Positions 4,656 through 32,861 of a DNA stretch of 33,873 nucleotides are shown piece after piece. The stretch is from assembly GCA_029881275.1 (NCBI GenBank), contig JAOUMX010000008.1, forward strand, positions 1-33,873. The letters are read 5' to 3'. Under the pieces are notes generated by a model. It worked only from the letters and a program-made list of their open reading frames with translations. It was not told the DNA's origin and searched no databases. The translations under genes and the position numbers were made by a program. The DNA comes from Gammaproteobacteria bacterium. GTDB lineage: Bacteria; Pseudomonadota; Gammaproteobacteria; SZUA-229. Position 1 is the stretch's first letter; each line of letters begins with the position of its first letter.

Positions 4656-4667
4656 ATGCCTGAATTT

Positions 4668-4743
4668 TGGTGGGCCCTCAGGGATTCGAACCCTGGACCA
4701 AGAGATTAAGAGTCTCCTGCTCTACCAACTGAGCTAAAGGCCC
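4668..4743 (-). tRNA. tRNA-Lys (anticodon CTT)
   Basis: Reverse complement GGGCCTTTAGCTCAGTTGGTAGAGCAGGAGACTCTTAATCTCTTGGTCCAGGGTTCGAATCCCTGAGGGCCCACCA; stem GGAGA/TCTCT, loop CTCTTAA. Confidence 0.95.
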
Positions 4744-16073: not shown

Positions 16074-16514
16074 ATGACAAGTGAGTTAACCACAGTAGGC
16101 TGGCGGGAATGGGTATCATTACCACAACTTGAAATACCAGAAATTAAGGCCAAAGTGGATACCGGCGCAAAAACATCCTGCCTGCATGCTTTCGATCTTG
16201 AACCCTATCAGGACAATGGCATTGAAATGATCCGCTTTCTGGTTCATCCGATACAAAAACGAAATGACATTATCAAAGAATGTCACGCAAAAGTAACAGA
16301 TAAACGACGCGTCAGTGATTCTGGTGGTCACAGAGAATTACGCTATGTCATTACCACACGTCTTGAAATTGGCGACATGGGCTGGGATATCGAGATGACA
16401 CTGACAGATAGAGATACTATGTTGTTTAGAATGCTGCTAGGGCGCACAGCGATGAAGAATCGGTTAAATGTTAATCCGGCGCTGTCTTATTTAATTGGTA
16501 AGAAGCCTCAGTAA
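16074..16514 (+). CDS. RimK-associated-type ATP-dependent zinc protease family protein
   Basis: VGWREWVSLPQLEIPEIKAKVDTGAKTSCLHA...LLGRTAMKNRLNVNPALSYL. Confidence 0.88.
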   Translation: MTSELTTVGWREWVSLPQLEIPEIKAKVDTGAKTSCLHAFDLEPYQDNGIEMIRFLVHPIQKRNDIIKECHAKVTDKRRVSDSGGHRELRYVITTRLEIGDMGWDIEMTLTDRDTMLFRMLLGRTAMKNRLNVNPALSYLIGKKPQ

Positions 16515-16582: not shown

Positions 16583-17209
16583 GTTTCGCCCTTTCTGGGC
16601 GAGTTCATTTCTTTTGCCCGTGCAAAAGAAACCGAACCAAAGAAAACACGCCCCAGATCACAAGCCACCATGCAAACAACGCATGGCAGTGCCCTCGTCA
16701 CTCGCAATTGATGAGGCTGCTGCGGAACTCACGAATTAAAAAGCCAATTCGCTCAGACATCCTCGCAGAAAGCCCCTCATAAATTACTCCCACCTCAGCT
16801 TGCTCAATGGAGGAATCAAAATCAAAAGCGCTCCTTATCTGTCATTGCGAGGTACGAAGCAATTTAAGCTGTTAAACCTGAAATTGCTTAGCTGCGCTCG
16901 CAATGACAAATATAAACAACCGTGCGCAGCACACAACGCCTTTGACCCTCCACCCCTTCACAGTTTGCCGAGCATTGATTCCCGGCAGGGGCAATTTGCC
17001 ATGGACGGCAAATTGAGTTTTGTTGAGCCACGACGGCGAATCAAAACGACCCGACAACGAAGCCAGCACAGCATAAACTTGTAATAACATTCAAAACAGC
17101 AAGTGACCAATGCTCGGGCACCCGCAGGGCAAACTGTCTTGGGACGGCGTTTTCTTGCCTACTTCTTTGTCGCTGTTGACAAAGAAGTAGGTCGCCAGAG
17201 AGGCGAAAC
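16583..17209. repeat. Noncoding island of nested imperfect inverted repeats
   Basis: Left arm 16583-16655 and right arm 17141-17209 are divergent inverted copies, each with two hairpins; inner pairs CAGTTTGCC 16961-16969 / GGCAAACTG 17128-17136 and CCGAGCATTG 16968-16977 / CAATGCTCGG 17108-17117; hairpin CAATTTGCC-ATGGAC-GGCAAATTG 16992-17015. Confidence 0.75.
16840..16908. repeat. 69-bp imperfect palindrome (TGTCATTGCGAG...CTCGCAATGACA)
   Basis: tgtcattgcgaggtacgaagcaattt...aaattgcttagctgcgctcgcaatgaca. Confidence 0.9.
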
Positions 17210-17350
17210 AGACTGTTTATACAAATTTGTAAGTTTTTTAACTTGATCATTATAAAGAAAGTGTAGAATATATATTTTTAAATAATAAATGATAACAAGT
17301 CGTATTTATCACACACCTCTTAAATTAGTTGGGCATTAGATTAATAATAA

Positions 17351-18256
17351 ATGTTTAAATCAGATCAAATTGACGAATTTTATTTTAATGCTGTTAATCC
17401 TAGTCGTGGAATCGCTGAAAGAGTAGACATTGATAAGGAACTTATCCGTCTTAGATCATCTACACGAAGGTTAGCAAGTAAACATTTACAACTATGGATA
17501 ATATTAATTGATGAAGGAATACATTTTTTAATTCATCTTGAAAGGCTTTTAGCTACAAGGGATAAGATGGGAGTTACTCGATTTAATCTATTGACCCTCA
17601 TAGCTAAACTAAAAAGCTTAGCAATTTCCTTCAGAGAATTAATTCTTTTAGGACAAGCTGATTCTTCAAGGCTTTTATTAAGAGGATTTATTGAAACTAG
17701 TGATATCACCTTACCAGCAATGGCTGACCCAATATTTTGTGCCGAATATGCAGAAGACAATCCTGAACATGATGATAATAAATTTTGGAAAAACAAAATA
17801 GCATATGGAAAAATATACCCTGTAATCAAATCAGCTCTAAAGAAAGCTGACTTTGAAGACGATCAAATTGACAGTTTAATACAATGGAAGAAAAACTGGA
17901 AATCTCAATTATCTGGAGCAGTTCATGCTGCATCTTGGTCTTCATTTCAATCTTGTCTAATCCCGTCACTATCAGAACCCGGCATGTTTGTCGAACATCC
18001 ATTCGGGCATCTCAGCGCTTACTCGCCGGAACTATGCAATGTGATCATTCAAGAACTACTTATTTTATCAAGCACATTTGAAGGGTTGCTAGTAAGCACA
18101 AATATGCCTTCACATCTAAAAGGTTATCCAACAGGCCCTGAATACGCCAGTACATTGTCATCATCAAACACTATGCATGAGTTTTTTTATAAATTTTATG
18201 ATGATTTATTTATTCCAATTGAAGAATTGATACCTGACCTTGTTAATGAAGACTAA
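17351..18256 (+). CDS. Hypothetical 301-aa protein, putative integron cassette-encoded gene
   Basis: Full-length AT-rich ORF; no family recognised. Starts 15 nt after cassette-like boundary TTAGAT; stop codon overlaps ATCTAAC. Confidence 0.75.
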   Translation: MFKSDQIDEFYFNAVNPSRGIAERVDIDKELIRLRSSTRRLASKHLQLWIILIDEGIHFLIHLERLLATRDKMGVTRFNLLTLIAKLKSLAISFRELILLGQADSSRLLLRGFIETSDITLPAMADPIFCAEYAEDNPEHDDNKFWKNKIAYGKIYPVIKSALKKADFEDDQIDSLIQWKKNWKSQLSGAVHAASWSSFQSCLIPSLSEPGMFVEHPFGHLSAYSPELCNVIIQELLILSSTFEGLLVSTNMPSHLKGYPTGPEYASTLSSSNTMHEFFYKFYDDLFIPIEELIPDLVNED

Positions 18257-18342
18257 TCTAACAACTAAATCAAGTTTGCACATATAAAGCATGTGCATGG
18301 TCACCACTTAAAGTGCAGCACCTCTTATTTATAACGTTAAAC
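18256..18342 (+). other. Putative attC recombination site (R''-L''-...-L'-R')
   Basis: R'' ATCTAAC 18256-18262 (fits RYYYAAC); L'' TAAATCAAG 18266-18274; L' CTTATTTA 18324-18331 (complement of L'' minus one C); R' GTTAAAC 18336-18342 (fits GTTRRRY). Confidence 0.7.
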
Positions 18343-18372
18343 AAAAAAACCGCAGCAAGCTGCGGTTTTTTC
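18342..18372. terminator. Rho-independent terminator (end of oxidoreductase operon)
   Basis: AAAAAAACCGCAGC-AA-GCTGCGGTTTTTTC. Confidence 0.85.
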
Positions 18373-32685: not shown

Positions 32686-32861
32686 GTTTTAAATAACCCA
32701 ATATCCTGAACATCGAATAGCAAACTGCAATAATCTTTGCTTTAATCAACTTATCTGTTGAGTTCTTAACTTCAGGCAATTCAAATGATAAACCCTGCAA
32801 AACACTAACTTTAATCTAACCCGAATCATTTCATTCGGGCGTTATATAAAAGGTCTTTCAG

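Follow-up and report, generated by a model that had tools for sequence, protein, structure and literature searches.

A single integron-type gene cassette, probably inserted at a secondary site of a gammaproteobacterial chromosome

How did a single gene bounded by what look like the ends of an integron cassette come to lie between two chromosomal transcription units? The question was raised by the 33,873-nt window analysed here (the whole stretch of DNA examined, to which all unlabelled positions refer), in which an earlier note, made from the sequence alone, had described a solitary cassette captured outside a recognisable integron. Integron integrases (IntI) recombine the folded bottom strand of attC sites; attI is the usual partner, secondary or attG sites serve less often, and the genes carried by cassettes commonly have no assigned function. 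The answer favoured by the present analysis, with a probability of roughly 0.83, is that a single cassette belonging to the host's own type of integron was inserted at a secondary (attG-type) site between the two units.

The 87-nt attC site occupied positions 18256-18342 of the forward strand, on which the gene also lies, and possessed the R''/R' and L''/L' box pairs and the extrahelical base characteristic of attC. Read from 5' to 3', it comprised the R'' box ATCTAAC (18256-18262), which overlaps the stop codon of the gene, the L'' box TAAATCAAG (18266-18274) with one extra C, a first hairpin of the variable end (GCACAT/ATGTGC, 18278-18296), a second hairpin (18299-18322, from the bottom-strand fold), the L' box CTTATTTA (18324-18331, from the sequence and the fold), and the R' box GTTAAAC (18336-18342), in which the G would belong to the cassette and TTAAAC to the target. 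The boxes, the 5' TTAGAT, the start of the open reading frame and the overlap of TAA with R'' all lay exactly where the earlier note had placed them.

Two covariance models were used to search for attC sites. Nine attC sites of class 1 integrons on annotated plasmids were the basis of model R1. A search with R1 at loci of the window's taxonomic family yielded 52 attC sites, the alignment of which gave model R2; one of the 52 came from the same genome (contig C179), and the window site was left out. With all filters off, R2 gave a full-length match to 18256-18342 (33.6 bits, E = 4e-6, or 3.3e-4 genome-wide, the E-values of both models being rough), and its second-best match in the window reached 12.3 bits only. 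The earlier note had held that failure of an attC covariance model to match would speak against a cassette; the match obtained coincides with the site to the nucleotide. The site was not among the matches of model R1 alone, probably because of its short, A+T-rich inner L box; an Rfam scan of the window reached no family threshold, and a pattern scan recovered the site only after its initially strict threshold had been lowered. No other attC was found by R2 anywhere in the 34-kb window. A 34-nt palindrome at 32814-32847 (ATCTAACCCGAAT...ATTCGGGCGTTATAT) resembled attC core boxes and gave a weak R1 score of 10.4 bits.

Homologous attC sites were present elsewhere in the same genome. In ungapped alignment, the window site was identical at 59 of 87 positions (68%) to the sites on contigs C200 and C222, with which it shares the terminal CTTATTTATAACGTTA. 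Among the 87-mers of 1.2 Mb of sequence, few places reached that identity to the C200 and C222 sites, the background maximum being near 48, and these high-scoring 87-mers are taken here to be attC sites themselves. Across five homologous attC sites, these three and two more from the family, 98.9% of the cells of the structure were paired, and four of the six pairs of the first hairpin had changed on both sides. The covariation score was 0.300, compared with a shuffle mean of 0.102 and with values of at most 0.089 when the pairing partners were slid. When folded to minimum energy, the bottom strand showed the R pair, an unpaired spacer, the L pair, in which one base was extrahelical, and a forked terminus, in agreement with the asymmetry that the earlier note had read from the extra base of L''; the canonical fold was restricted to this strand, the top strand not adopting the attC shape. 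The stability of the fold was only mildly above that of shuffled sequences (z = -1.5). The attC likeness of 18256-18342 is not due to chance.

The other end of the cassette was defined by the 5' box TTAGAT (17336-17341), whose six bases are all complementary to R'', as expected of the TTRRRY box in the circular form, which bears out the complementary ends proposed earlier. Because the two ends match, the left border (17335|17336) is fixed independently of the attC model. The same full complementarity was seen by eye in the cassettes of contigs C179, C200, C222, C191 and C211 and in the lipA-adjacent cassette of the sister species G001, and base composition alone predicts 0.04 occurrences of TTAGAT within 40 nt upstream of the ATG. 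The cassette thus delimited measures 1,001 bp (17336-18336, TTAGAT to G), with expected crossovers at 17335|17336 and 18336|18337. It had the usual layout of a single short gene pointing towards attC, with a leader of 15 nt between the border and the ATG, and no consensus promoter could be recognised in the sequence of this leader. The G+C content of the gene was 34%, similar to that of other cassette genes (33-34%), versus 45% for its neighbours.

The gene (17351-18256; ATG at 17351, TAA at 18254-18256, sharing position 18256 with R'') encoded a protein of 301 aa without recognised family or relative. No family matched it at useful significance, and no relatives were found by peptide patterns in plasmids, phages, viral contigs and GTDB species, nor among 369 genomes of the class; 399 genomes of the phylum yielded weak partial matches only, most of them within proteins about 1,200 aa long. 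Its single-sequence structure prediction had a mean pLDDT of 39. The cassette protein is an orphan.

Chromosomal DNA bounded the cassette on both sides, and the flanks were syntenic with those of G001, a sister species of the same genus in which the fabV, histidine-kinase and zinc-protease neighbourhood was kept. The G001 sequence was about 81% identical to window positions 17200-17326 and about 86% identical from 18336 rightwards, and the slot between them held a different gene, of 232 aa, assigned to Pyr_excise (PF03013, pyrimidine-dimer glycosylase). Since G001 has the same flanks around another gene, the 301-aa gene at this locus is replaceable, an insert that has not become fixed; the earlier note had counted fixation in relatives against a cassette. 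The G001 slot gene was itself considered as a cassette and rejected, as it possessed neither a detectable attC, even with filters off, nor an attC-like fold. In two further relatives (G002 and G006), the terminator and operon were in common with the window and the left side was different, so that no clean empty site was found among the three genomes. The zinc-protease gene was inverted between the sister species (window 16074-16514, locus L025 13464-13901), and the inversion adjoins repeat-rich DNA at 16800-17200.

On the right, as described earlier, the site abutted the terminator of the convergent oxidoreductase operon, a hairpin at 18344-18371 kept in three relatives, and TTAAAY adjoined this terminator in G001 too. 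On the left, the block shared with G001 (17200-17327) ended in the REP-like ATTTATCACACACCTCTTAAATT. The motif CACCTCTTA occurred both there and in the right attC (18319-18327), its left copy lying at 17314-17322, 8 nt from the approximate position first given (17322-17330). For this left flank the earlier note had offered either a remnant attC or a secondary insertion site. The remnant was rejected, as the left copy had no R2 match, was REP-like and belonged to a block common to the sister species; the flank is older REP-like sequence, and a secondary site is favoured. The left block was also considered as the seat of a shared promoter, and its forward strand held no consensus promoter. A position between REP-like sequence and terminator would disturb no gene. 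The REP-like flank and terminator interval might further be a recurrent landing site, a natural chromosomal hot spot for repeated IntI use, because the single gene found there differs between the two sister species and in each ends at TTAAAY beside the terminator; we regard this idea as quite doubtful.

Crossovers at attG sites reportedly show a GWT triplet. Secondary sites described in the literature carry a GNT triplet (PMC10127599). The left border of the present cassette reads A|TT, with A instead of the usual G as already remarked, and the deduced target triplet is ATT, which fits neither pattern; either a later G-to-A change or an atypical target would explain it.

IntI was absent from the window, as the earlier note had observed, and from the draft genome as a whole (231 contigs), so that no complete integron was recognised. 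The IntI-family matches in the draft were limited to a pair of full-length tyrosine recombinases that scored far below the cut-off and that we take to be XerC and XerD. In the family, 29 of 54 genomes possessed IntI, including G001, where the full-length gene adjoined metK and was preceded by a cassette-like gene (L053 603-1601, contig C41). At the metK locus of the present genome, similarity to G001 stopped short of the IntI position, and IntI may have escaped assembly or may have been lost. R2 found further attC sites in the draft, five at E < 1e-3 and a weaker sixth; two stood in tandem on C211, several were near contig ends, and several contigs ended inside cassettes, a way in which draft assemblies are known to break integrons (PMC9024848). 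The description of the cassette as solitary therefore holds within the window and not for the genome, where at least five other clear sites exist.

Several of these contigs showed features of their own. The same insertion-sequence end was present on C200 (1-130, L120) and C222 (4900-5205, L121), consisting of a transposase ending in ...YHSPMNYEKLCA followed by TGGTCCACTAAAGTGGTGCTAGATCA just before the attC-like 3' part, as if the element inserted into attC sites. Different cassettes on C191 (about 4665-4740, L123) and at the end of C179 (L100) were preceded by an identical AATCCGTATAACACACTG|TTATG, which on C191 came after a palindromic stretch beside a molybdate-transporter-like operon and might represent a recurring platform similar to attI or attG. 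Cassettes lay within about 5 kb of lipA-like sequence on C211 (L122) and directly beside lipA in G001 (C72, L101), which suggests a common array locus.

Insertion of a single cassette accounts best for these observations. It is supported by the attC match with exact borders, the homologous attC sites, their covariation and the bottom-strand fold, as well as by the complementarity of the ends, the different gene in the G001 slot, the low G+C content and the presence of IntI in the family; the attC match and the replaceable gene uphold in particular the proposed capture outside a recognisable integron. In this reading, the cassette would have been taken by IntI in circular form from an integron of the host lineage itself. 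The bottom strand of its attC, single-stranded and folded, would then have been recombined by the enzyme with a non-standard site in the chromosome, presumably close to ...TTGGGCA|TTAAACAAAAAAACC... (TTGGGCA|TTAAAC) beside the oxidoreductase operon terminator; uninterrupted, the site would have read ...TTAGTTGGGCA|TTAAACAAAAAAACC. Counting against insertion are the draft without IntI, the ATT triplet, the lack of a clean empty site and the mild z-score of -1.5.

Alternatively, the cassette could be the last of an older array at this locus that has lost its integrase and other cassettes, leaving an attC cluster shrunk to one. Cassettes without visible integrase on other contigs of the genome and a left border base A, as if G had decayed, would suit such a history, but neither a second attC nor an IntI remnant was found within 34 kb and the left block is common to the sister species without any attC match, which makes it unlikely. 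A misjoin of a cassette to the chromosome might be suspected in a fragmented draft of 231 contigs, several of which end inside cassettes; it is very improbable, as G001 carries both flanks, likewise ordered, on either side of one small gene, which shows that their closeness is real. Vertical inheritance of an ordinary gene with a 3' end that looks like attC by chance, an idea to which the short boxes and the miss by the class 1 model lend some colour, is scarcely credible and already contradicted by the family-model E-value of 4e-6, the homologous attC sites, their covariation, the circle complementarity and the different gene in the sister species.

Secondary and attG sites are recognised as rarer IntI targets (PMC10127599; PMC12901181; PMC11023631), and the inserted cassette of the window is a further case of single cassettes at secondary sites, already documented. 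As cited in PMC11023631 and PMC12901181, the attG insertions of Loot et al. (2024, Nat Microbiol) likewise place a single attC-bearing cassette in a chromosome outside an integron; the present case differs from that account in its ATT triplet, in a host IntI not found and in being a natural case from a gammaproteobacterial draft genome. The aadB cassette found in RSF1010 and in an Acinetobacter plasmid, at secondary sites in both (Recchia and Hall 1995; Segal and Elisha 1997, both as reported in PMC10127599), was similarly one cassette precisely inserted, whereas the insert described here is chromosomal and carries an orphan gene and an attC of the host's own type. A single-attC CALIN in the sense of IntegronFinder 2.0 also has attC without an integrase nearby; CALINs have been proposed to be degraded integrons (PMC9024848), whereas independent insertion is favoured for the window cassette. 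In this integron-rich gammaproteobacterial family, the locus would thus be a natural instance of a cassette that left the integron and settled in the ordinary chromosome, and so of the ability of integrons to supply genes to other parts of the genome.
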